Under the pieces are notes generated by a model. The model was not told the DNA's origin. It saw only the letters and a list, made by a program, of their open reading frames with translations, and did no database searches. DNA of 64,000 nucleotides from Pseudogemmobacter bohemicus. GTDB lineage: Bacteria; Pseudomonadota; Alphaproteobacteria; Rhodobacterales; Rhodobacteraceae. The stretch covers positions 446,941-510,940 of the forward strand of contig NZ_QNHG01000002.1 in the NCBI RefSeq assembly GCF_003290025.1, given 5' to 3'. Positions 41,265-64,000 of the stretch are shown one piece after another. Position 1 is the first letter of the stretch, and each line of letters starts with the position of its first letter. Both the position numbers and the translations under genes were made by a program.

Positions 41265-41282
41265 GGTGAATATCTATTCACC
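41265..41282. promoter_or_regulatory. Operator palindrome before the SorC regulator gene
   Basis: GGTGAATA-TC-TATTCACC is a perfect inverted repeat (8-bp arms) 13 bases upstream of the SorC start and overlapping the FGGY kinase stop. Its TGAAT/ATTCA symmetry suits SorC/DeoR-type binding, so autoregulation is likely. Confidence 0.72.
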
Positions 41283-42743: not shown

Positions 42744-42758
42744 ATCCGGTCCTGGTGG

Positions 42759-44527: not shown

Positions 44528-44541
44528 GATTTCCTCTCGGT

Positions 44542-44553
44542 GCATAATTATAC
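44542..44553. promoter_or_regulatory. Operator-like site GCATAATTATAC before the transketolase operon
   Basis: Eleven of twelve bases match the perfect palindrome at 44693-44704. It lies 15 bases upstream of the transketolase N start, where bound protein would block transcription. Confidence 0.6.
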
Positions 44554-44674
44554 AGTACGATATATAATTGCAGCCCTTTGCCACAAGTCAAGCGGGAAAC
44601 TGCGCCATCACAAAGATCGGTGGCGCCGCAAGAGTCGAAATCCGTGGTTGACAGCAGGGGGCGCCTCTTGTTAC

Positions 44675-44704
44675 GCATTATATGCCGAGAGTGCATAATT
44701 ATGC
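44675..44704. promoter_or_regulatory. Tandem palindromes before the permease operon
   Basis: GCAT-TAT-ATGC (44675-44685) and the perfect 12-bp palindrome GCATAATTATGC (44693-44704) lie about 40-70 bases before ATG 44746. With the near-copy at 44542 they form a symmetric control region for both divergent operons. The cognate protein may be SorC or another regulator. Confidence 0.65.
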
Positions 44705-44745
44705 GATCTGGCAAAAAGATACGGTCTGGTGCGAGGGGAGGAACC

Positions 44746-45726: not shown

Positions 45727-45818
45727 GAAATACGCTCCGCACGGGAGAGGCGGGGCGGAGACGGGAGAGTGGCGCCCGGAAATCTGGTGGCCACTTCAAC
45801 AACACGGAGGAGAGAGAC

Positions 45819-46763
45819 ATGACACTCAAAGGTATTTTGCTGGCGGCGACGGCTGCGATGGCACTGACCCTGCCGGGAATGGCCTCGGCCGAAGGCAAGG
45901 AAGTGAAGAAGATCGGCCTCGCGGTGCCGAACCTGCAGGCGGATTTCTTCAACCAGATCAAACTGGGCGTTGAGAAATACGCGAAGGAAAAGGGCATCGA
46001 GGTCGTCGTGGTTGACGCCAAGAACGACACCGCGACGCAGGTGAGCCAGGTCCAGGACCTGATGACCCAGGAAATTGACGCCTTCATCTATATCCCGGCC
46101 GGTGCGGCCGCTGCCGCCGTGCCGACCCGCCTCGCGCGCGAAGCCGGCATCCCGGTGATCAACGTCGACCGCGTGCCGGATGGCGCTCCGGGCGACACTT
46201 TCATCGCCGGCGAGAGCGTTGAATCGGCCTATGAGGTCTGCAAGTATATCATCGAGAAAGCCGGCGGCTCGGGAAAGATGGCAATCATCCACGGCCAGAA
46301 AGGCACCACGCCGGAAGTTGACCGTTTCGCCGGCTGTGAGCGCGCGATCAAGGAAAACGCGGGCGTCGAGCTCGTCGATCAGCAATGGTCGAATATGTGG
46401 TCGGCGGATGAGGGCTTCTCGATCGCGCAGAACATGCTTCAGGCGAACCCCGATATCACCATCATCTTCGGTCAGGCTGACGGCCTCGCGATGGGTGCGG
46501 CCAAGGCGGTCGATGTGGCGAACCTTTCCGACAAGGTGATCATCGGCGGCTATGACGGCGACGTCTCGGCGCTGGAATATCTGGCGAAATGCGAAGGCCC
46601 GTTCATCGCGACCGCAACCCAGTCGACGCAGGCCATGGGTGTGCTGGCGGTGGAATCGGCGCTGAAGGTGGCGGCTGGTGAATCTGTGCCGGAGCGTCAG
46701 ACCCCGAACGCGGTGCTGACCACCTGCGACAACGCGCCGGAATTCGTCAAAAACCACCCGTAA
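45819..46763 (+). CDS. Periplasmic sugar-binding protein (RbsB-like), polyol locus
   Basis: A 314-residue CUT2 binding protein. Signal peptide MTLKGILLAATAAMALTLPGMASA is probably cleaved after residue 24. The mature lobes show KKIGLAVPNLQADFFNQIK, VDAKNDTATQVSQVQDL, GIPVINVDRVPDG and KVIIGGYDGDVSALEYL, close to ribose/xylitol-type binding proteins. CGGAGGAGAGAGAC gives a strong ribosome site. Position between permease and ATPase completes the importer. The ligand is likely a polyol or ketose, given the dehydrogenases and FGGY kinase nearby. Confidence 0.92.
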   Translation: MTLKGILLAATAAMALTLPGMASAEGKEVKKIGLAVPNLQADFFNQIKLGVEKYAKEKGIEVVVVDAKNDTATQVSQVQDLMTQEIDAFIYIPAGAAAAAVPTRLAREAGIPVINVDRVPDGAPGDTFIAGESVESAYEVCKYIIEKAGGSGKMAIIHGQKGTTPEVDRFAGCERAIKENAGVELVDQQWSNMWSADEGFSIAQNMLQANPDITIIFGQADGLAMGAAKAVDVANLSDKVIIGGYDGDVSALEYLAKCEGPFIATATQSTQAMGVLAVESALKVAAGESVPERQTPNAVLTTCDNAPEFVKNHP

Positions 46764-46779
46764 GCAAAGGGCACGCGCC

Positions 46780-48258
46780 ATGACCTCTCTCCTGTCGCTG
46801 AATGGGATTGCGAAATCCTATGGCCCGATCAGGGTGCTGCACGGGATCGACCTCGATATCCGTCCGGGTGAGGTCGTGGCGCTGCTTGGCGAAAACGGTG
46901 CCGGGAAATCGACTTTGTCGAATATCATTTCCGGCACCGTGCAGCCTGGCGCGGGGTCTATGACCTTCCAGGGCAGGGCCTATGCGCCGGCCAGCCCGCG
47001 CGAGGCGATGGATGCCGGCGTCGGCATGATCCATCAGGAGCTGAAACTGCTGCCGGCGCTGTCGGTGGCCGAGAATATCTTCGTCGGGCGCTATCCGATG
47101 AAGGCGGGCCGTCTGGACCGTCGTGAGATGGAAGCGCGGGCGCAGGCGGGGCTGGAACGGCTTGGTCTGGACATCGCGCCGGACCGGGTGGTCGAGGGGC
47201 TGTCAACCGGTCGCCAGCAGCTGATCGAGATCGCCAAGGCGCTGACGCTGAACGCGCGACTTCTGATCCTTGATGAGCCGACCGCCGCACTTGGCGGCGA
47301 GGAGACGCAGCTTCTGTTCCGCCAGATCGAACGGCTGAAGGCCGATGGCGTCGGCATCATCTATATCTCGCACCGGCTGGACGAAATCCGCCAGATCGCT
47401 GACCGCATCGTCGTGATGCGCGATGGCGCCAAGGTGCAGGAGTTCGATCGCGGCGATGTGCCGGTTCGGCAGATCGTCGAGGCGATGGTTGGCCGCTCGC
47501 TGGAGCGGATGTTCCCGACCGTGCCGGAACCTTTGCCGGGCGTGGTGCTGGAGGTGAAGGCGCTGACCGGCGCTCCCGGCACCTTTCAGGATGTCAGTTT
47601 CCAGGTGCAGCGCGGCGAGGTTTTCGGGATTGCCGGGCTGATGGGCGCGGGCCGCACAGAATTGGTGCGCGCGATCACCGGGGCAGACCCGGTGCGCTCG
47701 GGCGAGATCAGACTGAACGGCGATGTGCTGCGGCTCCGTGACCCCTCGGATGCGATCCGCAAAGGGGTCGTGCTGGTGCCGGAGGATCGCAAGCTCCAGG
47801 GCGTGGTGCTGGATCACTCGATTGCCGAAAACATCGCTTACCCGAGTCTGAAACAGGTGGCTCAGGGCGGCTGGCTGTCGTCGCGCCGGGTGACGGAATT
47901 CGCCGAAGGGCTGATCGGGCGGTTCGGCGTCAAGGGGCGCGCCGGGCAAAACGCGGGCGAACTTTCCGGCGGCAACCAGCAAAAGGTCGTGCTGGCGAAA
48001 TGGCTGGCGAAAGACCCCGGCGTTGTGGTGCTTGATGAGCCGACGCGCGGGATTGATGTCGGCGCGCGCTCGTCAATCTATGAGCTGATCATGGAGCTGG
48101 CGCGCAAGGGCGTCGCGGTGATCGTGGTCAGCTCGGACCTCGAAGAGGTGCTGGGTGTCTCGCACCGGATCATGGTCATGGCCCAGGGTCGCCAGGCCGG
48201 GATCCTCAGCCGCGATCAGGCCAATGACGTGGCGATTATGGAACTCGCGACCAGCTGA
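46780..48258 (+). CDS. Sugar ABC transporter ATPase (RbsA-like), polyol locus
   Basis: A 492-residue tandem ATPase. The first P-loop GENGAGKSTLSN is near residues 38-49, with signature LSTGRQQLIEIAKAL and Walker B LLILDEPTAAL. The second half has the degenerate loop GLMGAGRTELVRAITG and an intact LSGGNQQKVVLAKWL followed by VVVLDEPTRGIDVGARS. It differs clearly from the ATPase at 2164 (different second P-loop), so the two importers are not a recent duplication. It is 16 bases after the binding-protein gene. Confidence 0.93.
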   Translation: MTSLLSLNGIAKSYGPIRVLHGIDLDIRPGEVVALLGENGAGKSTLSNIISGTVQPGAGSMTFQGRAYAPASPREAMDAGVGMIHQELKLLPALSVAENIFVGRYPMKAGRLDRREMEARAQAGLERLGLDIAPDRVVEGLSTGRQQLIEIAKALTLNARLLILDEPTAALGGEETQLLFRQIERLKADGVGIIYISHRLDEIRQIADRIVVMRDGAKVQEFDRGDVPVRQIVEAMVGRSLERMFPTVPEPLPGVVLEVKALTGAPGTFQDVSFQVQRGEVFGIAGLMGAGRTELVRAITGADPVRSGEIRLNGDVLRLRDPSDAIRKGVVLVPEDRKLQGVVLDHSIAENIAYPSLKQVAQGGWLSSRRVTEFAEGLIGRFGVKGRAGQNAGELSGGNQQKVVLAKWLAKDPGVVVLDEPTRGIDVGARSSIYELIMELARKGVAVIVVSSDLEEVLGVSHRIMVMAQGRQAGILSRDQANDVAIMELATS

Positions 48259-48283
48259 GGTTGGCGAAGAACAGGAAGAATTG

Positions 48284-49072
48284 ATGTCTCAGATCACCCT
48301 TGACGCCCCGAAACTCTTCGATCTTTCCGGACAGGTGGCATTTGTCACCGGCGCAGGGAGTGGCATCGGGCAGCGCATCGCCATGGGTCTGGCGCAATGC
48401 GGGGCGGATGTGGCGCTTCTCGACCGGCGCGAGGATGACGGGCTGGCGGTGACCGCTGATTTCATCGCCCGCGCCGGGCGGAGCAGCATTTCCATCGCCG
48501 CAGATGTGACCAGCGGTGCCGCGCTGCATGATGCAGTGGCGCGCACGGTGAAAGACCTGGGCGGGCTGTCGCTGGCCGTGAACGCCGCCGGTATCGCCAC
48601 CGCCAACCCCGCCGAGGAAATGGCCGAAAGCCAGTTCCAGACCATGATGGATATCAACCTCAAGGGCGTGTTCCTGTCATGCCAGGCTGAGGCAAAAGTG
48701 ATGCTCGCCCAAGGGCGCGGCGCCATCGTCAACATCGCCTCGATGTCGGGGGTGATCGTCAATCGCGGCCTCAGCCAGTGCCATTACAACGCCTCGAAAG
48801 CCGGCGTTATCCATATGTCGAAATCGATGGCGATGGAGTGGGTGACGCGCGGCGTTCGCGTCAACACGATCTCGCCCGGCTATACCGCGACGCCGATGAA
48901 CACCCGGCCCGAGATGGTGCATCAGACCAGGCTGTTCGAGGATGGCACGCCGATGGGCCGCATGGCCTCGGTCGATGAGATGGTCGGGCCGGCGGTGTTC
49001 CTGCTGTCGGGTGCCGCGAGCTATGTGACAGGCGTTGATCTGCTGGTCGATGGCGGCTTTTGCTGCTGGTGA
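48284..49072 (+). CDS. Short-chain dehydrogenase/reductase (polyol locus, plus arm)
   Basis: A 262-residue classical SDR. The cofactor motif is TGAGSGIGQRI, with D in LLDRRED favouring NAD(H). NAAG is at AVNAAGIA, catalytic Ser in NIASMSG, YNASK (Tyr, Lys), and the end is DLLVDGGFCCW. It resembles sorbitol/xylitol-type dehydrogenases. AGGAAGA precedes ATG 48284; the upstream frame overlaps the ATPase gene and is discarded. With the second SDR at 39480 it could give two successive or alternative oxidations before phosphorylation. Confidence 0.9.
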   Translation: MSQITLDAPKLFDLSGQVAFVTGAGSGIGQRIAMGLAQCGADVALLDRREDDGLAVTADFIARAGRSSISIAADVTSGAALHDAVARTVKDLGGLSLAVNAAGIATANPAEEMAESQFQTMMDINLKGVFLSCQAEAKVMLAQGRGAIVNIASMSGVIVNRGLSQCHYNASKAGVIHMSKSMAMEWVTRGVRVNTISPGYTATPMNTRPEMVHQTRLFEDGTPMGRMASVDEMVGPAVFLLSGAASYVTGVDLLVDGGFCCW

Positions 49073-49796: not shown

Positions 49797-50839
49797 GGCT
49801 CTGTTGCATAAATCTGACGAGGGTTTCATGTTGTGAATCCAGCGTGACAGCTGGTCGGCATGATCCGACCCACACCCGCCTACAAGACCAGGAACCGGCC
49901 CGCATATAACACAGCGCTGAAGCGTCGCGGCTCGCTGACGATTTGGTACGCCCCCGCCATGACCTGGGAGGCTGCACCGACGGGGAAGCGTGGACGGCAG
50001 GCGGACTACAGCGATACCGCCATCCCAGACCTGCCTGACGATGAAGGTGCTGTCCGGCATGGCGCTGCGGCAAACGACAGGGTTCGTCGAGAGCCTTTTG
50101 CGTCTGATCGGCCTTGACTGGGCGGTGCCGAACTTCAGCACGCTGTCGCGGCGCCAGAAGACCCTGAAGGTCAACATCCCGTATCGCGGATCGCAAGGGC
50201 CGCTGCACCTGCTGATCGACAGCACCGGAATCAAGGTCGAAGGCGAATGGAACGGCCCACAAGCACGGCGGCCCGAAACGGCGCGTCTGGCGTAAGATCC
50301 ACATCGGAATTGACGAGAAAACAGTGGAGATCCGGGCGGCCGGGTTCACCACAGGCGACGTCGGTGACGCACCCATGCTGCCCGAACTGCCCGACCAGAT
50401 CCCGCCCGATCAGGAGATCGGCAGCGTCACCGCCGACGGTGCCTTCGACACCCGAAAATGCCATGGTGCCATCGCCGCCCGAGGTGCCACCGCGATCATC
50501 CCTCCCCGAAAGAACGCCAGGCCCCGGAGGCCCGACACCTCCGGCTCGATCGCCCGCAACGAGGCCCTGCGCGCATCACGGCGCTTCGGCAGGACCATCT
50601 GGCGACGATGGAGCGGCTATCACCGCCGGAGCCGCGCAGAAACGAAGATGAACTGTGTGAAACTGCTGGGTCAGCGCCTCATGGCGCGGGATTTCGACCG
50701 TCAGGTGGCCGAGTTCCAGGTCCGTGTCGCCGTCCGGAACGGCTTCACGGCGCCCGGCATACCTCTCACTGAAGTCGTGGGCTAAGTCTGTCCCGGGAAA
50801 GAGAAAGTCCGGTCAGCAGGTGATTTGTGCAACAGAGTT
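49797..50839 (+). mobile_element. IS5-family insertion sequence, copy 2 (transposase frameshifted)
   Basis: A 1043-bp element, inverted relative to copy 1. The left end is GGCTCTGTTGCATAAATC (one difference from copy 1); the right repeat ends ...GCAACAGAG but its last two bases are TT instead of CC. The transposase begins MIRPTPAYKTR at 49860. It shifts frame at GATACCGCCATCCCAGACC (an extra C shared with copy 1) and again near 50252, where an added G in AACGGCCCA breaks the frame after KVEGEWN. The C-terminal third (50324-50785) is intact and, unlike copy 1, reads through SRAETKMNCVKLL. Probably inactive. Confidence 0.9.
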
Positions 50840-51644: not shown

Positions 51645-54600
51645 ATGAACCAGGAACCGGCGCAAATCGGGCTTTATGACCGCGATCCCGACAAAAGCAG
51701 CTGTGGCGTCGGGTTTCTGACCCGCAAGGACGGCCTTCAGACCCATGAGATTCTGACCCTCGGCCATGAGGCGCTTTGTGCCGTGCCCCATCGCGGGGGC
51801 ATGTCGGCCGAAGGGGTGGGCGACGGCGCCGGCGTGTCGGTGGATCTGTCGCTCGGCTTCTTTTCAGCGCTGACGGGCGCGGCGCTGGAACCCGGGGCGT
51901 TCGGCGTCGGGAACTTCTTCCTGCCCGATGAGACCGCACAGCAGGCCCGGGCGGAAAACCTCATCGGAGAGGCGCTGAACGCCCAGGGCCTCGGCACTCT
52001 GCTGCTGCGCGACGTGCCGGTGAACAATGCGGTGCTGCGTCCGGCGGCTTTGCGCTGCCAGCAGGCGATCCGGCAATGGGTCTTTGCCGCGCCGGAGGGT
52101 CTGCGCGGCGCGGGCCTTGATCTGCGCATCCACCGCGCGCTGCTGGCGATCGAGGCGGAGGCCTATACCGACCCCGCGCTGGCGGGGCTTTACCCCTTGT
52201 CGCTTTCGGCCAGGATGCAGGTGCTGAAGGGGCGGCTCAATTCCGATGAAATCGTGCCGTATTTTCTGGATCTGATGGACCCCTCGCATGGCGTCCACAC
52301 CCTGTATTTCCACACGCGGTTTTCCACCAATACCGACCCGCATCCCTCGATGGCGCAGCCCTTCCGCTTCATGGCGCATAATGGCGAGCTGAACACCGAC
52401 AAGAAGAACCGCCTGTCCGAGGCTGCCGTCGCGCGGGCGAAAAACAGCAATATCACCCGCCCGAAAGGCCAGTCGGACAGCTGCCGGCTGGATCAGACGC
52501 TGCAGGCCCGCGTGGTGGAGGACGGGCTGGACCTCGTCACCGCCGTCGTCTCGATGATGCCGCCGGCCTGGGAGAATGACGACACGCTTTCGCCGCAGGT
52601 GCGGGCGATGCTGGAATATTTCTCGCTCTATGAGGAGAAGAATGACGGCCCCGCTGCGCTGATCTTCGGCGATGGCCAGATCATCGGCGCGCGGCTGGAC
52701 CGGCTGGGCCTGCGCCCGCTGCGGGTGGTGGAGACCGCCGATTACCTCGCCGTGATGTCCGAGGCCGGGCAGATCGCCTTTGCCCCCGACAGCGTGCTGG
52801 CGCGCGGGCGGATCGAGGCGGGCGGGATGCTCTATTATGACCACGCCGGGCGGCGCGCTTTTGGCACCCATGAGGCGCTGGAGATGCTGGCGGCGCGGCG
52901 CGATTATACCGAACTCCTGACCTCGGCCCGCACCCGTCTGGCCGATCTGCCCGAGGTTCCGGCCGAGCGTCAGGGCAGCCCGCTGCGCTATTCCGGCGAT
53001 CTGAACCGCCATGCCCGTTACGTCGCCTATAGCCACAACCAGGAGAGCTTCCGCTTCCTGATGGACCCGATGCTGGCAACCGGGGCCGAGAAGGTCTCGG
53101 CAATGGGATATGGCAATGCGATCAACGCCTTGTCGGATAACGAAGGCGGCGTGGCGAAGTATTTCAGCCAGCGCTTTGCCCAGGTCACCAACCCGCCGCT
53201 GGACAGCATCCGGGAAGCGGATGGGATGACTTTGCGTGTGGCGTTTGGCGCAAAGCCGGGTCTCGGCGGCCAGGTCGCGCCGCAGATCGTGGTCGATACG
53301 CCGATCCTCTCGCATCTCGATATGCTGAAAATCCGCGAACAGGCGGCGACGCCGGTCGCGCGGTTCGAGATGCTTTATGAGCCGGTCCTTGGCGATGCAA
53401 AGGTCAATCAGCAGGCGCTGACCGGCGCCATCGACCGTATCGCGGGCGAAGTCGCGGGCTTTGCCGGCGCGCAGGGCGGCATCGCGATCCTCTCGGACCG
53501 GCATGTCAGCTCGGGCCGCGCCGCGATCCCGATGACGCTGATGGTCTCGGCCATCAACCAGCGCCTGATCGAGGAGGGGCTGCGCCTCCGCGTTTCGCTG
53601 ATCGTCGAATCCGGCCAGATCTCCAGCTCCCATCACATCGCCTGCGCGCTCGGGTTCGGGGCGGCGGCGGTTTACCCGCTGGGCGTCCAGTTCCGCGCCG
53701 AGGAGAAATATGGCGCTGAGGCCGATAAGGCCTTCAAAAAATTCGCCAAAGCTGCCGAGAAGGCGCTGATGAAGACCATGGGCAAGGTCGGGCTTTGCAC
53801 GGTGGAAAGCTATTCCGGCGGCGAGTTTTTCGAGCCGAATTTCCTCGACACCAATGATCCGGTGTTTCGCCGCTATTTCCCTAATGTGAAAACCCCGGTG
53901 GGGGGCGTGACCTTTGACGTGGTGGCCCAGGCCGTGGCCGACTGGCATGCCCGCGCGCTGCATGTGTCGCGCGAGGATGACATCCCGCTGCTGGGTCTGT
54001 TCAAGGAACGGGCCGAGGGCGCGGGCCACAGTTACGGCACCACCGCCGTGCGCGGTTTCGTCGACATGACGGAAGAGGCAATCAGCCAGCCCCAGGGCAC
54101 GGAAGAGGTTGATCCTCTGCGGCTGATGACGCTGAACCGGCTGGAGGATGCGTTCGGCATCTCGGATGAGGGCTATACCAATACCAGTTTCGACCGGCTG
54201 ACGCCGGAGCGGATCGACGCCTTCCGGGTGACGCCGGGCTATCGCAGCTTTTCGCGGATGATGGCCGAGGAGCGCGCCCGCCGCCCGGCGGCTTTGCGCG
54301 ACGTGCTGGCCTTTCCGGCCGATGTGACCCGCGCGGCCTCGCCCGGGGATTTCCGGCGCGAGATGAAGAAGTTCAATCGCAAGGGGAATAACAGCTTCCT
54401 CGTGCGGGGCGTGTATTGCGCCGATCTGAGCGCGGGACGGTTCCGGCTGGGCCTGACCGGCATACCGGACTTTGCGCGGCTGGATGCCTTGTCGCAAAGC
54501 CTGATCCAGCGTTTCGGGCCCGAAATCACCGGCCACTGGCTGGAAGGCACTGCGCTGATGATCGAGGCGACGGGCGAGGCGCAAAGCTGGCTGTCGCGGC

Positions 54601-57089
54601 TGCGGCCTGCGCCCGAGGCGATTGCGCTGGATCAGGTGCAGCCCGCGCATCAGATCACGCCGAAACTGGCATCAGGTGCGATGTCGCATGGCGCGCTGGT
54701 TGCGACCGCGCATGAGGCGGTGGCGCATGGCACCAATATGGTCGGCGGCATGTCGAATTGCGGCGAGGGGGGCGAGCATATCTCGCGCTATGGCACCATT
54801 CGCGGCTCGAAGATAAAGCAGTTTGCCTCTGGCCGTTTCGGGGTCTGGGCGGGCTACCTTGCCGATCCGCAACTGGAAGAGATCGAGATCAAGATCGGCC
54901 AGGGCGCGAAGCCCGGCGAGGGCGGCCAGCTGCCCGCGCCGAAGGTCACCGTCGAGATCGCCGCCGCGCGGGGCGGCACGCCGGGGGTGGAGCTGGTCTC
55001 GCCGCCGCCGCATCATGATACTTACTCGATCGAGGATCTGGCGCAGCTGATCCATGACGCCAAATCCGCGCGGGTGCGGGTGGTGGTGAAGCTGGTTTCC
55101 TCGGAAGGGATCGGCACGATTGCGGTCGGCGTCGCCAAGGCGGGGGCCGATGTGATCAATGTCGCCGGGAATACCGGCGGCACCGGCGCGGCCTCGGTCA
55201 CCTCGCTGAAATACACCGGCCGCGCGGCAGAGATCGGCATTGCCGAGGTGCATCAGGCACTGAGCGCAAACGGCTTGCGCGATCTGGTCACGCTGCGCTG
55301 TTCGGGTGCGCATCAGACCGGTTCCGATGTGGTGAAATCGGCGCTGATGGGCGGCGACAGTTTTGAATTCGGCACCACGGCGCTGATGATGCTGAAATGC
55401 GTTATGGCGAAGAACTGCAATATCAAATGCCCCGCCGGTCTGACCACGAACCCCGAGGCGTTCGACGGCGATCCGCGCGCGCTGGCGCAGTATCTGCTGA
55501 ACATCGCGCATGAGGTGCGGGAGATCCTCGCCTCGCTGGGTCTGCCGTCCCTTGAGGCCGCGCGCGGACGGGCAGAGCTGTTGCATCTGCTGGATCACCC
55601 CGCTTCGGTCGGGCAGCTGGATCTGCGCGCGATGCTGACCGAAGTGCCCAGCCTGCACATCGAAAACTCGGTCCGGATGCCGCGCGATTTCGCGCTGGAT
55701 GATGCCTTTATCGACCTGTTGCGCCCGGCGCTGGAAGAGGGGGCGATGCAGATCGACCTTGGCGGCAATCTGGTGCTGAACAACCGAAACAAATCGGTCG
55801 GCGGCCAGCTGGCTGTCGATATCGAACGGATGCTGAACCATGAGGGCCATGCGCCGAAAGCCAGCCTGAAGGATGACCGCGGCCGCCGCTATCTGCGCCC
55901 CGGCACGGTTCGGATCACGACGCAGGGTTCTGCGGGCCAAAGCTACGGCGCGTTTTGCAATGACGGCATGGTGATGACCCATACCGGAACCTGCAATGAT
56001 GGCGTCGGCAAGGGGCAATCCGGCGGCGAGCTGGTGGTGAAAAGCCCCGGTGGCGGATCTGACAGCGCGGGCGGCAATGTGCTGATCGGGAATTTCGCGC
56101 TGTTCGGGGCAACCGGCGGGCGGCTTTTCGTCGAGGGTCAGGCCGGCGACCGGTTTGCCGTCCGGAACTCGGGTGCGACGGCGGTGGTCGAGGGCATCGG
56201 CGATTTCGGCGTCGAATACATGACCAATGGCGCGGTGCTGAACCTTGGCGATTTCGGCAAGGGCTTTGCCAATGGCATGTCGGGGGGCTTTGCCTGGCAA
56301 TATGATCCCTACGACCTGTTGCGCGCCAGGGTCAGCCATGATTCCGTGGTTCTGGGGCGGCTGGATGGCTCTGACGCGTCAGAGATCCATGCGCTTGCAG
56401 TGCGGCAATTGCTGGAATGGCACCATGTGGCGACCGGCTCGGCCAAAGCGGAATGGCTGCTGGCGAACTGGGCGCAGGAACAGGTGAACTTTGCCTGGGC
56501 CCTGCCGCGCGCGCTGCTGCAATACCAGGACGCGGATGAGATCCTGCGGGCAAAACCGCGCAAGGATCTGATCGAGGAGCTGGGTCAGGCGCTGGTCTCG
56601 CATCAGATCAGCAAGCTGAAAAAGGCCTGGCGCGCGGGTGTTCCGGTCTTGCGCGGTCAGGTGCCGGGTTATGGCGAGACCGATACAGAACAGATGTTCG
56701 CCCTGCTCAATCAATGGACGGTGCTTGAGGCGGCGCAGGCGATAGTGATGCAGCGTCTGCGCACGAATGCCGATACGCCCGAGGCCCGCAAGGCGGCAAA
56801 AAACCTGATCCTGACCGAGGATTTCGCGCTGATGACGCGGCTGTTGAAACAGGCGCGGGCGGCGGTGACCGATTACGCGGATGCGGAACTGGCGGCGCTG
56901 GTCGCCGGCAAACGGCTGGGCGATTACAAAGAAGCGCTGTCTTTGCGCAATATCCTCTCGATGGACAGCCCGGGCACCTATGGCTGGATCCTCGACCAGG
57001 ACCGCAAGAACCGCCGCATCCTCGGGCAGATCCCCTCTTTCGAGATGCTCTTCGCCCGCAATTCCCTTGCCGATCTGACCGGAGCCTGA
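51645..57089 (+). CDS. Glutamate synthase large subunit-like protein (oversized GltB homologue)
   Basis: A protein of 1814 residues against about 1500 for typical GltB. Domains in order: an N-terminal Ntn glutaminase with Cys20 in SSCGVGF as nucleophile (about 20-420), a central domain (about 460-780), and YRSFSRMMAEERARRPAALRDVL. An inserted segment of about 100 residues (about 890-988) follows. Next come the FMN barrel from ASGAMSHGAL (about 1009), the GXGXG beta-helix (about 1430-1550) and an extra helical C-terminus of about 260 residues. The Fe-S region has C1252-X5-C1258-X3-C1262, whereas GltB normally has CX5CX4C. I start at 51645, nine bases after GGGGG; TTG 51594 would give a 36-residue propeptide. 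No GltD is nearby; a diflavin reductase follows after 5 bases. Confidence 0.85.
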   Translation: MNQEPAQIGLYDRDPDKSSCGVGFLTRKDGLQTHEILTLGHEALCAVPHRGGMSAEGVGDGAGVSVDLSLGFFSALTGAALEPGAFGVGNFFLPDETAQQARAENLIGEALNAQGLGTLLLRDVPVNNAVLRPAALRCQQAIRQWVFAAPEGLRGAGLDLRIHRALLAIEAEAYTDPALAGLYPLSLSARMQVLKGRLNSDEIVPYFLDLMDPSHGVHTLYFHTRFSTNTDPHPSMAQPFRFMAHNGELNTDKKNRLSEAAVARAKNSNITRPKGQSDSCRLDQTLQARVVEDGLDLVTAVVSMMPPAWENDDTLSPQVRAMLEYFSLYEEKNDGPAALIFGDGQIIGARLDRLGLRPLRVVETADYLAVMSEAGQIAFAPDSVLARGRIEAGGMLYYDHAGRRAFGTHEALEMLAARRDYTELLTSARTRLADLPEVPAERQGSPLRYSGDLNRHARYVAYSHNQESFRFLMDPMLATGAEKVSAMGYGNAINALSDNEGGVAKYFSQRFAQVTNPPLDSIREADGMTLRVAFGAKPGLGGQVAPQIVVDTPILSHLDMLKIREQAATPVARFEMLYEPVLGDAKVNQQALTGAIDRIAGEVAGFAGAQGGIAILSDRHVSSGRAAIPMTLMVSAINQRLIEEGLRLRVSLIVESGQISSSHHIACALGFGAAAVYPLGVQFRAEEKYGAEADKAFKKFAKAAEKALMKTMGKVGLCTVESYSGGEFFEPNFLDTNDPVFRRYFPNVKTPVGGVTFDVVAQAVADWHARALHVSREDDIPLLGLFKERAEGAGHSYGTTAVRGFVDMTEEAISQPQGTEEVDPLRLMTLNRLEDAFGISDEGYTNTSFDRLTPERIDAFRVTPGYRSFSRMMAEERARRPAALRDVLAFPADVTRAASPGDFRREMKKFNRKGNNSFLVRGVYCADLSAGRFRLGLTGIPDFARLDALSQSLIQRFGPEITGHWLEGTALMIEATGEAQSWLSRLRPAPEAIALDQVQPAHQITPKLASGAMSHGALVATAHEAVAHGTNMVGGMSNCGEGGEHISRYGTIRGSKIKQFASGRFGVWAGYLADPQLEEIEIKIGQGAKPGEGGQLPAPKVTVEIAAARGGTPGVELVSPPPHHDTYSIEDLAQLIHDAKSARVRVVVKLVSSEGIGTIAVGVAKAGADVINVAGNTGGTGAASVTSLKYTGRAAEIGIAEVHQALSANGLRDLVTLRCSGAHQTGSDVVKSALMGGDSFEFGTTALMMLKCVMAKNCNIKCPAGLTTNPEAFDGDPRALAQYLLNIAHEVREILASLGLPSLEAARGRAELLHLLDHPASVGQLDLRAMLTEVPSLHIENSVRMPRDFALDDAFIDLLRPALEEGAMQIDLGGNLVLNNRNKSVGGQLAVDIERMLNHEGHAPKASLKDDRGRRYLRPGTVRITTQGSAGQSYGAFCNDGMVMTHTGTCNDGVGKGQSGGELVVKSPGGGSDSAGGNVLIGNFALFGATGGRLFVEGQAGDRFAVRNSGATAVVEGIGDFGVEYMTNGAVLNLGDFGKGFANGMSGGFAWQYDPYDLLRARVSHDSVVLGRLDGSDASEIHALAVRQLLEWHHVATGSAKAEWLLANWAQEQVNFAWALPRALLQYQDADEILRAKPRKDLIEELGQALVSHQISKLKKAWRAGVPVLRGQVPGYGETDTEQMFALLNQWTVLEAAQAIVMQRLRTNADTPEARKAAKNLILTEDFALMTRLLKQARAAVTDYADAELAALVAGKRLGDYKEALSLRNILSMDSPGTYGWILDQDRKNRRILGQIPSFEMLFARNSLADLTGA

Positions 57090-57094
57090 GACCC

Positions 57095-58831
57095 ATGCGC
57101 CTTCCCTATATCCCCGAAGATGCGCCGTTCAGCGGTGATCAGCGCGCCTGGCTTTCGGGCTTTCTCGCGGGTCTGCATTCGCGCCAGGCGATGGGGGCTG
57201 TCGCCGTCGCGCCAGCCGTCGGGGCGCGGCCGAAAACGCTGGTGAATGTGCTTTACGGCACCCAGACCGGCAATTCCGAAATGCTGGCCGAAGAGGTTGC
57301 GACCCGCGCCCGCGCCATGGGGTTCGACGCCCGTGTGCAGCCAATGGATGATGTGACGCCCGACGCACTGGCGGCGATGCGGCACGCGATCCTGATCTGC
57401 TCTACCTATGGCGAGGGCGAGATGCCCGACAGCGCCGCGCTCTTTTGGGACGCGCTGACCTCTTCCGCCGCGCCCCGGCTGGAGGGGCTGCATTACGCGG
57501 TGCTGGCGCTTGGCGATACCGGCTATGACGGGTTTTGCCAGGCCGGCAAGCTGATGGATACAAGGCTGGCGCAGCTGGGCGCGCAGCGGATGGCCGAGCG
57601 GGTCGATTGCGACATCGACTTCGAGGCCCCGGCCAATGCCTGGATCGCCGCCACGCTGCCGCTGATCGGCGGAAAGGCCGAAGCGCTGGTGGCAAGCACC
57701 GCCCCGGCCGGGGCAAAGCCGGGTTACAGCCGCAAGGCACCCTTTGCCGCCCGCCTGGCGGTCAACCGGCTTTTATCGGGCGCGCACTCGTCGAAAGAGA
57801 TCCGGCATTATGAATTCGACCTCGGCACCTCGGGGCTGAGCTATGAGGCTGGCGATGCGCTTGGCGTGGTGCCGGTCAATGACCCAGGCCTGGTGGCTTC
57901 GGTGCTGGAGCAGGTCGGGGCTGGCCCTGACACCCTGGTTGCGGGCCAGGACCGCCCGTTCGGCACTTTGCTGACGGATGCTTTCGAGATCGTCACGCCG
58001 TCGCGCGAGATGGTGGCGGCGATCGGCGCGCGGGCCAATGACGAGGCGCTGAGCCATGTCCTTGCCGGCGGCGACCGGGAGGCGCTGGACGCCTGGCTCC
58101 GGGATCGCGACCTGCTGGATCTCCTCAGAATGCTGCCGAAGGGCGGCATGGATGCCGGCACGCTGACCGGCCTGCTGAAGCCGCTGCAACATCGCGCCTA
58201 TTCGATCTCATCAAGCCCGAAAGAGGCGGCGGGATCGGTGCATCTGACCGTCGCGTCAGTGCGCTGGAGGGCCGAAGGCCGCGCCCATGGCGGCGTCTGT
58301 TCCACCTTCCTCGCCGACCGCGCCGGTGAGACGGCGGGGATATTCGTGCAGCCGAACAAGGCCTTCCGCCCGCCCGTCGATGATGAGGCGCCGATGATCA
58401 TGGTCGGCCCCGGAACCGGCATCGCGCCCTTTCGCGCCTTCCTTCAGGAACGCCGGGCGCGGGGCGCGAAGGGGCGCAACTGGCTTTTCTTCGGCGATCA
58501 GCACCGCGAGAGCGACTTCATCTATGATGGCGAATTGTCGGGGATGGCAGAGCAGGGCCTGCTGACCCGGCTGGATCTGGCTTTCTCACGCGATCAGGCC
58601 CAGAAGGTCTATGTCCAGACCAGGATGCGGGAAAATGGCAAAGCGCTGTTCTCCTGGCTTGAGGAAGGCGGCTGTTTCTATGTCTGCGGCGATGCGACCA
58701 GGATGGCGCGCGATGTGGATACCGCCCTTCACGAAATCATCGCCACCCATGGAGGGCTCGGCCCCGAGGCCGCGACCGACTATGCCAACGGCCTGAAACG
58801 TGCGAAGCGCTATCTGCGCGATGTATACTGA
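57095..58831 (+). CDS. CysJ-like diflavin (FMN/FAD) NADPH reductase
   Basis: A 578-residue electron-transfer flavoprotein. Flavodoxin domain: LYGTQTGNSEMLAEEV (about 50-65) and CSTYGEGEMPDSA. FAD domain: RAYSISSSP. NADPH domain: GPGTGIAPFRAFLQERRARG, FFGDQHRESDFIY and YVCGDATRMARDV, ending KRYLRDVY as in sulfite reductase alpha subunits. No sulfite reductase hemoprotein is encoded near it. It starts 5 bases after the GltB-like stop, so the two are surely co-translated; I infer that it passes NADPH electrons to the FMN/Fe-S centre of that protein, replacing GltD. Confidence 0.9.
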   Translation: MRLPYIPEDAPFSGDQRAWLSGFLAGLHSRQAMGAVAVAPAVGARPKTLVNVLYGTQTGNSEMLAEEVATRARAMGFDARVQPMDDVTPDALAAMRHAILICSTYGEGEMPDSAALFWDALTSSAAPRLEGLHYAVLALGDTGYDGFCQAGKLMDTRLAQLGAQRMAERVDCDIDFEAPANAWIAATLPLIGGKAEALVASTAPAGAKPGYSRKAPFAARLAVNRLLSGAHSSKEIRHYEFDLGTSGLSYEAGDALGVVPVNDPGLVASVLEQVGAGPDTLVAGQDRPFGTLLTDAFEIVTPSREMVAAIGARANDEALSHVLAGGDREALDAWLRDRDLLDLLRMLPKGGMDAGTLTGLLKPLQHRAYSISSSPKEAAGSVHLTVASVRWRAEGRAHGGVCSTFLADRAGETAGIFVQPNKAFRPPVDDEAPMIMVGPGTGIAPFRAFLQERRARGAKGRNWLFFGDQHRESDFIYDGELSGMAEQGLLTRLDLAFSRDQAQKVYVQTRMRENGKALFSWLEEGGCFYVCGDATRMARDVDTALHEIIATHGGLGPEAATDYANGLKRAKRYLRDVY

Positions 58832-58901: not shown

Positions 58902-59460
58902 ATGGCGATGCAAAAGACCGGCCGGGATTGCCCTGGTCCTGCCAGAGCCGCAGCCATCGCGCCGCCTGGGCCCCGGCGCAGCCTGGCCGGGCTGGCCGCA
59001 AGCGGCGCGGCGCTCTCTGAATGGGAGGCCGGGGTGCTGACCCTGCTTATGCCGATATTCGCGCGGGTTTCGGGCGCCACCACCGGCCGCCATGCCCTGA
59101 TCAGCGAGCGCGGCGCCTATGGTCCGGTGCGACTGGCCGGGCAGTGGCTGGCGATTTGTGCTGCGGCTGATTGCGGGCCGGGGCGAGCGGCTGGTGATAC
59201 GCGCGGCCGATCCGGCGCGGCGCCAGCCCGCCGGGCTGCATCTGTTCGACGCGGAGGGGCGGCTCCGCCACCGGCCTGAGATCGCCGTATCCGAGGATCT
59301 GATCCTTCTGGCCTCGCTTGATCGGGAACCCGGCTGCGGGGCGCCGCCGGATATTCCGGCAGAGGATCTTGCCCCCGTTACGCGGCCCGCCCCGATCCCC
59401 GGGATCCACCGCGCCCGTCCGGCTGGCGCGGAATGGATGTCCGTGCGCCTGGCCTCAGCC
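58902..59460 (+). pseudogene. Frameshifted hypothetical gene downstream of the diflavin reductase
   Basis: The frame from ATG 58902 gives MAMQKTGRDCPG, LSEWEAGVLTLLMPIFARV and ALISERGAYGPVRLAGQWLA. A one-base shift near 59150 moves the rest to FVLRLIAGRGERLVIRAADPARRQPAGLHLFDAEGRLRH and ASLDREPGCGAPPDIPAEDL, up to about 59460. The two parts read naturally as one protein of about 185 residues. I do not recognise the family. The end is uncertain because the second frame stays open into the antisense of the next gene. Confidence 0.4.
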
Positions 59461-61843
59461 CGCATCCGGCAGCGCGAAGGCGATCACATAATCGCCCCGA
59501 TCAGGGGATTGCCGCGCGCCGCCGGCGACCACGATGATATATTGCCTGCCGGTTTTCGGCGACACATAGCGCATCGGATTGGCCTGGGCGCCGACCGGCA
59601 GCGGGCCTTTCCACAACTCTTCACCCGTCGCCATGTCGATGGCGCGCAGATAATAGTCCTGGGTCCCGGCATAGAAGGCGATGCCCGAACCGGTCACCAC
59701 CGCGCCCGACAGCGTCGGCATCCCGATCGGCACCGCAAGGCCGGGGCGGATGCCGCCAGGGCTGATATCCTCCAGCGTGCCGGCGGGTTTCTGCCAGACC
59801 AGTTCCGGGATTTTCAGGCTGATCGCGGCAAAGACGCCCCATGGCGGTTGCTGGCAGGGCAAGCCGGGGAACGAGTTGAACGTCTCATGGTCGATGACAA
59901 AGGGCGTCCCCACCATCGGACAGGTCGAGCCGACACCCTGGCCAGAGCTCAGCGCCTCGAAATCAACGCCTTCGGCAGGGGGCAGTGTCACCACCTGCGG
60001 CATGCGGATATCGTTGAGGAAGAGGTAACCCGAGGCGCGGTCCAGCGCGGCGGAACCCCGGTTGAAACCGCCATAATAGCCCGGACAGATCAGCGTCGAC
60101 TCCAGCTGCGGCGCGGTGAATTTCCCCTTGTAGTTCAGCTTTCTGAAGGCGATGCGGCAGGAAAGCTGATCGAAGAAGGGGGTGCCCCCATATCCACCTC
60201 GGTCAGGGGCGCTGCGCCGAAAGCGGCATCCCGGACGACGAGGGCCGGGTGGGCGCGACATAATCGCCAAAGGCCACTTCTTGCGGCACCGGGGGCTCTT
60301 CGACCACCGTGACCGGCGCGCCGGTGCGGCGGTAGAACATGAAGATCTGGCCGCGCCTGGTGATCTGACCAAGGGGGGCGTGCCGTCAGGCAGGTCGTAA
60401 AGCGTCGTTGCGAGCCGATATCGTAATCCCAGATATCGTGATGCGCGGTCTGGAACAGCCATTTGTCGCGGCCCGTGGCCAGATTGACCGCCACCACCGC
60501 CGAGGAATATTTATCCGTCAGCGCCGGGCGGTCACCGCCCCAGAATCGGGCTGCTGATTGTCATCCGGCAGATAAACGAGGCCAGGCGCCTCATCCACCG
60601 CCGGATGGGTACACATATTCGGGGTCGATCGGGTATAGGCCTCGCCCTCGGGCGGCAGTTTCGCAATCGCGGGATTGCCCAGATCCCAGGCACAGACCAG
60701 CGCATCAGTGTCTGCCGAGAAGGCTCGCACCACGCCCGAGGGCTCGTCCAGCGCACGACCGTCAAACACCCAGCCGCCGACCACGATCAGATTGCCCACA
60801 ACGGCCGGCTGCGAGGGATAGGCCCAGGAGAAGCGCGGCCCGAATTTCACATCGCCGATCCCGACCATCATCGAGACTTTGCCATCCTGGCCGAAATCGC
60901 GGCAGATCGCGCCGGTATTGGCATCATAGGCGATCAGGTCCGCATCCATCCTGGCCTGGATGATGCGGCGCGAACACAGCGCGCCCGGGGCCGGAGCGAT
61001 ACGGGTCTCGCCCTCGGCCGGATAGACCTTCGTGACCTTCGCCGCCTCGTAAAAGGCCACGCCGCAGCAGCGGTTCCAGACGGTTCTGGTGTTTTTCAGC
61101 TCTTCGCGATGCTTCTATTTTGCGGCCCGATATCGACATCATCGGCGATGATCTCGGAGGTGGGCGAGCAGTAAATACAGCTTATCGCCGACCTGGATCG
61201 GGGTGTTTTGATCCTCGGAGGCGCCGGTCGCCAGCGCGCCGGTACGCGCCTGCCAGGCGATTGTCAGGTCAGACACATTCTTTTTGGTGATCTGGTCAAA
61301 TGGCGCATAGCGTGCGCCATCGAGGTCATAGCCATATTGCGTCTGGTTGACGGAGCCGTCATTGACCATCGACACCGCATCCGGGACGGGCCCTGGCGGT
61401 GATCACGCCATGTTCGAGGAAGGCGGCAGAGGCACCGAAGACCAGCGCCAGCGCAGATACGCCCGCCACCGCGAAAGACGGCAGCCGCCGGTCATCAGCG
61501 GATTGATCAGCCCGGCGATCAGCCCCATCACGAGGAAGGGCGCAAGGTGCGGCACCAGCGCTCAGTAATTCGCGCCCGCCTCCCAAAAGGCCCAGGCGAC
61601 GGTGCCAAGGGTGACCAGCGCCATCACAAGCATCGCGACCGGTTTCCTGAGGATGTTCAGCACCCCCGCCACCACCAGCCCGGCGCCGGCGATCAGGTAA
61701 TACCAGCTGCCGCCCAGCGAGATCAGCTGAGCGCCTCGCATCGCCAGCCAGAGCCCGGCCAACACCATCAGCGCCCCCGGCAGCCAGAAGACAAAACGAC
61801 GCCCGCCCGGGCCGCGCTCCCCGGGATCAGAGAGTTTATCCAT
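59455..61843 (-). pseudogene. gcd: PQQ-dependent membrane glucose/quinate dehydrogenase, multiply frameshifted
   Basis: The minus strand carries a complete but broken Gcd-type gene. It starts MDKLSDPGERG at 61843 with membrane helices (LPGALMVLAGLWLAM, YYLIAGAGLVVAGV), continues SVAGVSALALVFGASAAFLEHG in another frame, then QTQYGYDLDGARYAPFDQI, MVGIGDVKFGPRFSWAYPSQP, NMCTHPAVDEA, TAHHDIWDYDIGSQ and GVGSTCPMVGTPF, and ends PDRGDYVIAFALPDAG at 59455. At least five frame changes occur (near 61570, 61380, 61150, 60540 and between 60180 and 60430). Intact homologues oxidise glucose to gluconolactone in the periplasm and pass electrons to ubiquinone. Pseudogene, or a low-quality assembly stretch. 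Confidence 0.85.
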
Positions 61844-62014: not shown

Positions 62015-62926
62015 TCAGAGGCGCATCCCCGCCCCGGCGCGGCCGCCCTCCTGCGCGCGGGCAGGGGTGACGCCGAAGGTGCGCTTGAAGGCGGTCGAGA
62101 AATTCGCCGGGCTGGAATAGCCGGCGATAAAGGCGGCCTGGGCCACATTGGCGCTGCCCCGGCTCAGCGCGGCAAAGGCCGCCTCCAGCCGCTGCGCGCG
62201 GATGAATTCGCCCGGGCTGCAATCGAGCTGCCGCCGGCAGAGCCGTTGCAAACTGCGCAGCCCGAGGCCGCAGGCGCGGGCCAGCGTCTCGGGACCCAGA
62301 TCGGGATCGCCCAGATGGCCGGCAATATAGCCCGCCAGCACCGCGATTTTCGGATCCGGCCGCGCGCCCTCGGCCGGGCGCGGCGCGGCCAGTGCGGGCT
62401 CCGCCGCCTCCAGCGCGGCGCGGTACAGCTCGATCCCGCGCGACATCAGCACCAGATTGCCATGGCCGGGCCGATGCGCGTAATAGCTGCCGCCCCGGTG
62501 GTCATCGGCGATTGCCTGGGCCAGCGCCAGCATGGCCGCATCGGGGCGCCATTGCCGCCAGGAGATGCCGCCCGAGGGGCTGTGCCGCATCTCCGCCCCC
62601 ATGCCGTTGACCTCACCCGCATGATCCAGCCAGTCGGGATCGGTGGTGATCGCCAGCTTGATCAGCGGCTGGCCATAGCTTTCCAGATATTGCAGTTCTG
62701 CCTCGACCCCGATCCGCAGCAGAAGCGCCCTGGGGCCGGGATCGCCGGGGATCACAGTCGAGAGCAGGAACTCGGTCTCATTGACGCGAAAGCGCTGATG
62801 GCCGTTCAGCATCAGAAGCAGCATCTGTTTGGGCGTGATCCTGGCCGGGCCAGGGTCTTCGACCCCGTTCACCGTTTCATGCATGACGCCGATCCTCAGA
62901 TTGCCAGGATAGCGAAACACCGTCAT
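62015..62926 (-). CDS. AraC-family regulator, divergent from siderophore receptor
   Basis: A 303-residue regulator. The C-terminal DNA-binding domain (about 205-295) contains LGPETLARACGLGLRSLQRLCRRQL and AQAAFIAGYSSPANFSTAFKRTFGVTPARAQ, the two helix-turn-helix units with the AraC signature. The N-terminal part (MTVFRYPGNLRIGVMHETV) resembles the siderophore-sensing PchR/OA-type group. GGAGGA lies before ATG 62926; the frame upstream to 63205 is antisense to the receptor. Divergent from the TonB receptor, it probably activates it in response to the cognate siderophore. Confidence 0.88.
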   Translation of the reverse strand: MTVFRYPGNLRIGVMHETVNGVEDPGPARITPKQMLLLMLNGHQRFRVNETEFLLSTVIPGDPGPRALLLRIGVEAELQYLESYGQPLIKLAITTDPDWLDHAGEVNGMGAEMRHSPSGGISWRQWRPDAAMLALAQAIADDHRGGSYYAHRPGHGNLVLMSRGIELYRAALEAAEPALAAPRPAEGARPDPKIAVLAGYIAGHLGDPDLGPETLARACGLGLRSLQRLCRRQLDCSPGEFIRAQRLEAAFAALSRGSANVAQAAFIAGYSSPANFSTAFKRTFGVTPARAQEGGRAGAGMRL

Positions 62927-63115
62927 CTCTGTCCTCCGCGTCTGGCCGCGCCGCCATCCTGGCGCCCCGCCAAACAAGATTGTCGCCCGGTCAAAGCTCT
63001 GCCGCATGGAGCAGTGGCCCCGAGTTCTATAATAATCGTGTAAAATACTCAACAACTCTCCCCTCCGGCAAAACGGGGGCGGAGAAGATGTGCCGAAGGA
63101 CGAAAGGGACAGTTC

Positions 63116-64000
63116 ATGGCAGGCGGCAAGATGCTTCACCGCGCAATGGGAATTCTGCTGACGACCAGCGCACTGACCGTGCTGGCGCCGGTTGCGCAGG
63201 GGCAAACCACGGAAAATCTCGGGACGGTGGTGCTGGAGGCGACGGGCGGCTATGCGGCCGGAAAATCGCGCGCGGGCACCAAGACCGAGACGCCGCTTGA
63301 GGAAACGCCGGCCTCGGTCTCGGTGGTGACCGAAGAGCAGATCGCAGATCAGTCGTCGAAATCGGTGGCCCAGGCGCTGCGCTATACGGCGGGCGTCACT
63401 GCGGAATATCGCGGCGCCTCGAATATCAGTGACGAGGTCTATATGCGCGGCTTCGGCTATGTGCCGCGATATGTGGACGGGCTGTCCTTTGGCGGTTCGG
63501 GGCAGCAGATCGACACCTGGCTTCTGGAAAGCGTGACGGCGGTGAAAGGGCCGGCCTCGCTGCTTTACGGCCAGGCCAATCCGGGCGGGCTGATCGACAG
63601 CACCACCCGCAAGGCGAATGGCAGCACGATCAACCGGATCGGCTTCTCGACCGGATCCGGATCACGGGCCGAAGCGCGGTTCGACTTTGCGCGGCCGGTC
63701 GAGGGCACCGACTTTTCCTGGCGGCTGGTGGGGATCGCCGCCCAGGCCGATACCCAGGAAGAGGGGCTGCAGACCCGGCGCCTGTCGCTGGCGCCCTCGT
63801 TCCGCTGGACGCCGACCGATGCCACCTCGCTGACTGTCTTCGGCATGTATCAGCGCGAGCCCGATGCCGGTTACCGCAATTTCCGTGAATATGCCGGGAC
63901 GGTGGCACCGACCGCCTATGGCTTCATCCCCGCCGATTTCCTCGTTGGCGACCCGGATTTCGAACTCTCAAGCCGCACCTCTTATGCGCTTGGATTCGAG
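63116..64000 (+). CDS. TonB-dependent siderophore receptor (partial, continues beyond window)
   Basis: The first 295 residues of an outer-membrane receptor. The signal peptide covers about residues 1-29 (MGILLTTSALTVLAPVAQG). The plug domain contains TPLEETPASVSVVTEEQI, SVAQALRYTAGV, YMRGFGYVPRYVDGL and LLESVTAVKGPASLLYGQANPGGLID, hallmarks of FhuA/FpvA-type ferric siderophore receptors. Barrel strands begin at about residue 175. Between it and the divergent AraC gene lies an AT-rich promoter stretch with TATAAT at 63028. AAGGGACAGTTC precedes ATG 63116. Confidence 0.9.
   Translation, partial: MAGGKMLHRAMGILLTTSALTVLAPVAQGQTTENLGTVVLEATGGYAAGKSRAGTKTETPLEETPASVSVVTEEQIADQSSKSVAQALRYTAGVTAEYRGASNISDEVYMRGFGYVPRYVDGLSFGGSGQQIDTWLLESVTAVKGPASLLYGQANPGGLIDSTTRKANGSTINRIGFSTGSGSRAEARFDFARPVEGTDFSWRLVGIAAQADTQEEGLQTRRLSLAPSFRWTPTDATSLTVFGMYQREPDAGYRNFREYAGTVAPTAYGFIPADFLVGDPDFELSSRTSYALGFE

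Follow-up and report, generated by a model that had tools for sequence, protein, structure and literature searches.

Which protein feeds electrons to a glutamate synthase that is encoded apart from GltD? This question is raised by a gene pair of Pseudogemmobacter bohemicus in a stretch of 64,000 nucleotides (contig NZ_QNHG01000002.1, positions 446,941 to 510,940 of the forward strand), hereafter the window, from whose first letter positions are counted. Open reading frame (ORF) and Pfam analysis identified the first gene (51645..57089, + strand) as encoding a GltB-like protein of 1814 amino acids, i.e., a long version of the large subunit of glutamate synthase, the main gate of ammonia into metabolism. 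After a gap of 5 bases, it is followed on the same strand by a gene (57095..58831) for a CysJ-like diflavin reductase of 578 amino acids, dependent on reduced nicotinamide adenine dinucleotide phosphate (NADPH), which was recognized by Pfam, NCBIfam and its solved relatives and is the presumed electron-donor subunit. No GltD adjoins the pair, as the host GltD is encoded at C2:958912, about 450 kb away. Re-analysis confirmed these ORFs, their lengths, the gap, the lack of an adjoining GltD and the cysteine motif C1252-X5-C1258-X3-C1262 that had been reported in a preliminary description of the locus. In the available part of the published account, the electron donors described are GltD-type proteins, ferredoxin, the fused module of the eukaryotic enzyme and separate-domain archaeal ORFs (PMC8097209), and the open-access full-text literature searched yielded no account of a glutamate synthase that is diflavin-coupled or iron-sparing. 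The gene pair stands for a glutamate synthase variant that is real and widespread, has a diflavin donor and is undescribed in that literature, and we consider it highly probable that in this enzyme the diflavin reductase has taken the place of GltD as the electron input.

A distinct family of long GltB proteins

The domain order of the long GltB-like protein is that of a glutamate synthase large subunit. It comprises a class II glutamine amidotransferase domain (GATase_2, PF00310, E 1.2e-81; residues 20-423, 51702..52913, +) with the catalytic Cys20, the central domain (Glu_syn_central, PF04898, E 2e-71; residues 459-730, 53019..53834, +), the synthase domain that holds the flavin mononucleotide (FMN) and 2-oxoglutarate (2-OG) sites (Glu_synthase, PF01645; residues 990-1299, 54612..55541, +) and the GXGXG beta-helix domain (PF01493; residues 1410-1576, 55872..56372, +). 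The first in-frame TTG is at 51594; if translation starts from the ATG at 51645, Cys20 is preceded by a leader of 19 residues. The protein was compared with related sequences, giving 87 family members with the window included, and with 30 ordinary GltBs. Cys20 is present in 85 of the 87 members and the remaining two are gapped at this position, while K1089, Q1095, R1109 and E1130 are invariant (87/87). By counting along the alignment to 1llw, the first three match K972, Q978 and R992 of the ferredoxin-dependent glutamate synthase (Fd-GltS) of Synechocystis, which we take to be its 2-OG ligands, and E1130 corresponds to what is presumably its gating glutamate.

Several features set this family apart from ordinary GltB. 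The cysteines of the Fe-S motif (55398..55430, +) are spaced CX5CX3C in all 87 members and in none of the 30 ordinary GltBs, all of which have CX5CX4C, a spacing found in none of the 87; thus, the altered spacing is not due to chance or a sequencing slip. Near the FMN/cluster region, W1195, D1220 and K1224 are changed to A, S and Q, respectively, in 87/87 members, and R1227 is changed to S in 82/87. An insertion before the FMN barrel had been placed at about residues 890-988; the insertion itself was borne out, while its extent was not, as the extra sequence, mostly gapped in the 30 ordinary GltBs, is spread over residues ~805-986 (54057..54602, +) in six stretches. The later part of this insert is predicted by a structure model to form a small alpha/beta unit, and a further 20 extra residues are found at 1399-1418. 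Likewise, the protein does have a C-terminal extension, whose length is about 190 residues (~1622-1814; 56508..57086, +) rather than the 260 first suggested. This family-specific domain is predicted to be all-helical, with a predicted local distance difference test score (pLDDT) of 87.6, and no significant relative of it was found in Pfam or among PDB sequences and folds (best fold match, E 0.51). In the synthase region, the long proteins are about 41-48% identical to ordinary GltB, and the protein from the window scored below the cut-off of the NCBIfam large-subunit model PRK11750 (1022.5 vs 1047 bits). An ordinary GltB of 1513 amino acids is encoded elsewhere in the host genome (C2:964759), making the long form an accessory enzyme, the second glutamate synthase of P. 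bohemicus.

The long GltBs constitute a family of their own, with members in Alpha-, Beta- and Gammaproteobacteria, Actinomycetota and one metagenome-assembled genome (MAG) of Verrucomicrobiales. The family counts rest on the plasmid loci and the best 80 of 528 confirmed relatives in a scan of genome contigs; these 80 loci were 64-86% identical to the query and came from Rhizobiales, Rhodobacterales, SAR116, SAR92/Porticoccaceae, Pantoea/Erwinia, Methylobacillus, Lampropedia, Rhodococcus, Mycobacterium, Nocardia and the Verrucomicrobiales MAG. Plasmid records contained nine copies at 60-80% identity, four of them from one species, and the other 58 plasmid matches were below 60%. Within individual taxa the long form is rare. 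It was found in none of 39 relatives searched, 12 of which belong to the same genus; 34 of the 39 matched the long GltB at E<=1e-100, mostly over the synthase region and at 43-48% identity. The long form occurred in 3 of 385 genomes of the host class (P. bohemicus included), in 2 of 296 genomes of the phylum of a Rhodococcus genome (G422, itself one of the two), in 3 of 119 genomes of the order of a Pantoea genome (G431, itself counted) and in 6 of 149 genomes of the family of the latter, Enterobacteriaceae (G431 again counted).

The diflavin reductase as a probable dedicated partner

A gene for a diflavin reductase directly follows the long GltB gene in 86 of 86 testable related loci, with gaps of at most 185 bases (L041 was included, L042 was completed by L043, and L096 is truncated where its contig ends). 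The reductase from the window consists of a flavodoxin-type FMN domain (Flavodoxin_1, PF00258; residues 52-175, 57248..57619, +), a flavin adenine dinucleotide (FAD)-binding domain (FAD_binding_1, PF00667; residues 212-405, 57728..58309, +) and an NADPH-binding domain (NAD_binding_1, PF00175; residues 436-542, 58400..58720, +). The flavodoxin loop is conserved among the partner reductases, and the positions of the motif SRDQxxK[VI]YVQ in the NADPH-binding domain are kept in 85 of 86, the remaining one being gapped. The FMN-FAD-NADPH layout, this motif and the C-terminal RDVY motif are all shared with CysJ.

It might be argued that the second gene is an independent CysJ that lies beside the GltB-like gene by accident. 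The best solved relatives of the reductase are indeed CysJ proteins, and its score exceeds the cut-off of the NCBIfam model PRK06214 (NF004859, "sulfite reductase subunit alpha"; 455.1 vs 432). It falls, however, below the cut-off of the CysJ equivalog model TIGR01931 (590.9 vs 668.15 bits), and the 86 partner reductases form one clade (support, 0.987) that excludes all of the 15 other diflavin reductases drawn from the same genome set, including those of Pantoea/Erwinia. The distance matrices of the long GltBs and their reductases agree closely (Mantel r 0.93, n=84; highest value of 999 permutations, 0.14; L082 and L106 were left out, and L096 lacks a reductase sequence). Furthermore, no GltD-family protein was found at E<=1e-30 in 17 of the 19 genomes whose only GltB is the long form. 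Given the adjacency in 86/86 loci, the separate clade and the co-divergence, chance adjacency and a plain CysJ function were rejected, and we regard an accidental neighbour as extremely improbable. The original suggestion of a two-gene, glutamate synthase-like unit with the diflavin protein as its likely donor is upheld by the adjacency across phyla, the Mantel correlation and the missing GltD. Neither of the two findings that were named beforehand as refuting it was made, as the altered cysteine spacing occurs in none of the 30 ordinary GltBs and the two genes do stay together across taxa.

In the host genome, the reductase from the window is the only full-length match to the CysJ model, the other match being partial (E 8.7e-4), and a search with its own sequence at E<=1e-20 matched it alone. 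No sulfite reductase haemoprotein turned up among the neighbouring proteins scanned, a scan that included no search aimed at the haemoprotein, and no CysI is annotated near the pair in four annotated plasmid loci, where likewise no search aimed at CysI was made. The label of PRK06214 may be wrong for the proteins that are partners of glutamate synthase; if a diflavin reductase does drive this enzyme, annotations that name the partner a sulfite reductase would need to be corrected. Three other diflavin reductases of carrier genomes (L188, L189 and L190) are in open frames of 1379-1430 amino acids that resemble fusions with a further enzyme.

Replacement of GltBD and the reaction catalysed

Genomes of 45 of the 80 contig loci entered a search for synthase domains, 24 genomes were searched for the GltD family and 26 for diflavin reductases. 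A GltB of ordinary length was missing from 19 of the 45 carriers, i.e., from 14 Pantoea/Erwinia-type genomes and from the MAGs L127 (SAR116), L068, L088, L095 (SAR92/HTCC2207) and L072. Among the 149 Enterobacteriaceae genomes, an ordinary GltB was found in 84 (in two genomes as a short frame, of 1062 and 1260 amino acids), the long form in six, both in one and neither at the cut-off in 60, which, among those listed, are mostly small genomes. The two forms are nearly mutually exclusive in this family; both were present in two of three carriers in the broader sample of the order.

In E. coli, the gene order is arcB-yhcC-gltB-gltD-(nan genes, dcuC)-sspB-sspA-rpsI-rplM, and in Pantoea/Erwinia it is arcB-long GltB-reductase-sspB-sspA-rpsI-rplM. 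In 14/14 Pantoea/Erwinia loci, arcB lies beside the pair, as recognized by the ArcB equivalog model and by 75-77% identity to that of E. coli, and sspA lies on the other side in 12/14. Judged by these shared flanks, gltBD has been replaced in place by the pair in Pantoea/Erwinia. The same has probably happened in the SAR92 group: in 6/6 SAR92/Porticoccaceae loci, hemE (HemE equivalog model) follows the pair within about 30 bases, and in a Methylobacillus locus (L139) the order is ordinary gltB-gltD-hemE.

Genetic evidence comes from Pantoea ananatis. In the available part of the published work, strain AJ13355 has no close homologue of the E. coli glutamate synthase (GOGAT), the product of its gltB is 64% identical to an Agrobacterium GOGAT, a gltB knockout leads to glutamate auxotrophy and the glutamine synthetase (GS)-GOGAT route is the main route of ammonia (PMC12364357). 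In P. ananatis LMG 2665 (L108), we found a long protein that shares 68% identity with an Agrobacterium long form, compared with only 30-39% for the ordinary GltB of that Agrobacterium genome. The LMG 2665 genome contained no other synthase-domain match at the cut-off, and no GltD was found in it. Given the identity to the Agrobacterium long form and the lack of another synthase in LMG 2665, the published gltB of AJ13355 almost certainly belongs to the long GltB family, as judged from this second strain. If so, the diflavin partner would explain how P. ananatis, with no GltD found in the LMG 2665 genome, can use GS-GOGAT as its main ammonia route (PMC12364357).

These results bear on the substrate, which the preliminary description had suggested might be a 2-oxoacid other than 2-OG. 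The family-specific changes around W1195, D1220, K1224 and R1227 and the retention of an ordinary GltB by 26 of the 45 carriers would fit an amidotransferase-synthase of this kind. Set against it are the invariant K1089, Q1095, R1109 and E1130, the fact that the pair holds the place of gltBD in Pantoea/Erwinia and, probably, also in SAR92-type bacteria, and the glutamate auxotrophy of the P. ananatis gltB knockout, as given in the available part of the source (PMC12364357). On the grounds of residue conservation, GltBD replacement and auxotrophy, another 2-oxoacid was rejected as the substrate, and we consider it very unlikely. For the same reasons, the pair is, with high probability, a genuine glutamate synthase whose electrons pass from NADPH through FAD and FMN. 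Regarding the partner, the preliminary description was correct; regarding the substrate, it was probably mistaken.

Some observations weigh against a diflavin-driven glutamate synthase. The 26 carriers that retain an ordinary GltB have the long form as an accessory enzyme, and five of the 19 genomes without an ordinary GltB are MAGs, in which absence is weaker evidence. Two Erwinia genomes among the 19 (L125 and L128) do have GltD-like proteins, which are in open frames of 651-660 and 1056-1101 amino acids. The P. ananatis paper, in its available part, mentions no reductase and names no electron donor (PMC12364357). Finally, a model of the 1073-residue synthase region, built from the window sequence and those of 54 out of 56 dereplicated loci, had a pLDDT of 70.5 with low confidence around the cluster, so that no docking geometry was taken from it.

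Proposed electron path and possible iron economy

The enzyme probably works as follows. The large subunit would hydrolyse glutamine at Cys20 and channel the ammonia to the FMN site, where 2-iminoglutarate would be reduced to glutamate as in ordinary GltB. NADPH would reduce the FAD of the CysJ-like protein and, through it, the FMN of its flavodoxin domain, which would pass single electrons to the CX5CX3C Fe-S centre and on to the active-site FMN. This path is the simplest one and would involve direct contact between the two proteins. The reductase probably docks on the helical C-terminal domain, a candidate site for this, and on the insert that precedes the barrel. We infer the physical complex, the direction of electron flow, the cluster type and the docking from the analyses above.

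The pair resembles GltB/GltD of the bacterial NADPH-dependent enzyme in its domain order, catalytic cysteine, 2-OG residues, three cluster cysteines and, in Pantoea/Erwinia, chromosomal site. It differs in having a diflavin reductase in place of GltD (a subunit with FAD and two [4Fe-4S] clusters), the CX5CX3C spacing, the insert at 805-986 and the helical C-terminal domain. With Fd-GltS it shares the architecture of the large subunit and, presumably, the way in which electrons enter, one at a time from a carrier-like domain, but it has an NADPH-dependent diflavin partner encoded next door and lacks the stretch at about residues 915-933 of the Synechocystis enzyme in the alignment to 1llw, which we take to be the ferredoxin loop. 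The absence of this stretch is relevant to the possibility that the large subunit is of the Fd-GltS type and is fed by free ferredoxin or flavodoxin, the reductase serving to recycle the carrier. The flavodoxin domain does resemble a carrier that is able to replace ferredoxin, and gene adjacency would remain useful under such a scheme; yet the strict co-divergence with one dedicated diflavin protein also speaks against a free carrier, which we consider very improbable. Unlike CysJ, the reductase belongs to a clade separate from the 15 diflavin reductases compared, scores below the equivalog cut-off and is found beside long GltB in every testable locus. The eukaryotic NADH-dependent GOGAT is likewise driven by a pyridine nucleotide, but through a fused GltD-type module where the enzyme described here has a separate diflavin reductase (PMC8097209, available part).

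The exchange of GltD for a diflavin reductase can be likened to the replacement of ferredoxin by flavodoxin. According to the available part of the source, ordinary NADPH-dependent glutamate synthase has one [3Fe-4S] and two [4Fe-4S] clusters, of which the latter two are in GltD (PMC8097209). As the diflavin donor would need no iron, the diflavin version would contain at most 3 Fe instead of the 11 per ordinary protomer. A flavin-only donor, if confirmed, would demonstrate that a substitute can stand in for the iron-rich half of the enzyme, would provide a compact two-gene unit for metabolic engineering and, for bacteria of soil and ocean, would tie the assimilation of nitrogen to the limitation of iron.

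In the actinobacterial loci, we looked for the IdeR box over 400 bases upstream of the codon for the catalytic Cys, using a consensus that we assume to represent it. An IdeR-like box with at most 6 mismatches in 19 positions was found in 10 of 11 loci, compared with 2 of 11 ordinary actinobacterial gltB genes (Fisher 0.002) and 0.34% of 2045 background pieces. The boxes of L089 and L092 are identical and, therefore, not independent. Three loci (L082, L094 and L106) were not anchored in the scan, of which L094 was then checked by hand. Two non-actinobacterial loci (L064 and L053) were likewise within 5-6 mismatches of the IdeR string. Genes of siderophore-receptor, iron-permease or HemS/ChuX-like type were found within 7 kb of 19 of 86 loci and of none of the 30 ordinary gltB loci, which were taken from carrier genomes (Fisher 0.003). 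The queries had been taken from Ketogulonicigenium L047 and the P. bohemicus genome, which match themselves; without these two loci, the counts were 17/84 and 0/30 (Fisher 0.006). As the loci are related, neither value is a strict probability. L041 and L042 were left out of the count, and it should be noted that the TonB-receptor matches of L069 and L077 were weak (54-61 bits).

Because of the IdeR-like boxes and the siderophore/haem neighbours, the data suggest that the pair spares iron in some lineages, P. bohemicus itself being an unproven case. Several observations point the other way. One actinobacterial locus (L102) has no IdeR-like box, and no iron box was recognized in the window, in the Rhizobiaceae and Pantoea/Erwinia loci or in most of the alpha- and gammaproteobacterial loci. 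In addition, a promoter element of the Rhizobiaceae, described below, looks specific to the long-GltB operon. The lack of recognized boxes would suit a diflavin-driven glutamate synthase whose advantage is resistance to oxygen or oxidants, conferred by a donor without [4Fe-4S] clusters, or one that arose by simple gene replacement; the actinobacterial boxes and the neighbours in 19/86 vs 0/30 loci count against such explanations, to which we assign somewhat less than an even chance. Iron sparing is likely as the physiological reason for the pair, with less certainty than the enzyme itself, and whether it is the main reason is about evenly balanced, with better prospects in actinobacteria and Rhodobacterales. 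The broader proposal is a further class of glutamate synthase as regards its electron donor, an iron-sparing GOGAT that many bacteria of soil and sea would keep as a spare copy induced by iron shortage and that would be the permanent substitute for GltBD in Pantoea/Erwinia and SAR92-type marine bacteria; it could equally well be right or wrong.

Patterns for Fur, Irr and two RirA-type strings were also tried in Alpha- and Gammaproteobacteria, and none was convincing. A conserved promoter block of the sequence CTTGACT...AGGTCA or a close variant, together with an inverted repeat of the type GTCAG-N5-CTGAC, lies upstream of L044, L046, L054-L061, L083 and L103. In eight genomes or records, the Rhizobiaceae block TTGACT...AGGTCA with its inverted repeat had one match per operon and two others, compared with five matches of the backward control pattern. 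As the control matched more often than the extra sites, the block was rejected as a regulon motif.

In some loci, the reductase gene is followed at about 10-40 bases by a third gene, which encodes a divergent HemS/ChuX-like protein, suggesting a link to haem or iron (L087:17250-18218, L114:17319-18275, L085:7634-8686 and L047:16149-17066). The assignment is uneven: it is clear in L114 (PF05171, E 6e-19), just above the cut-off in L087, below it in L085 and without a match in L047.

The surroundings of the pair in the window include a fragment of a DDE transposase (50324-50785, +; PF01609, E 1.7e-15) about 0.8 kb upstream, which is in keeping with gene transfer of the pair. Also adjoining the pair is a cluster for sugar uptake and catabolism (41274-49072), with an FGGY kinase, a split transketolase, parts of a sugar ATP-binding cassette (ABC) transporter and a short-chain dehydrogenase/reductase (SDR). 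On the other side, a pyrroloquinoline quinone (PQQ)-dependent dehydrogenase (59455-61060, -), apparently split into at least two ORFs with PF01011 in both, sits between the pair and iron-uptake genes. Beside the latter lies an AraC-family regulator (62015..63205, -), whose ORF is probably over-extended at its 5' end; they include the start of a TonB-dependent receptor of the siderophore type by similarity (63116..64000, +), which continues past the window (L129:5057-7168) and is followed in the P. bohemicus genome by an enterochelin-esterase-like gene. Much the same arrangement is found in Ketogulonicigenium L047, where an AraC gene precedes the siderophore receptor.

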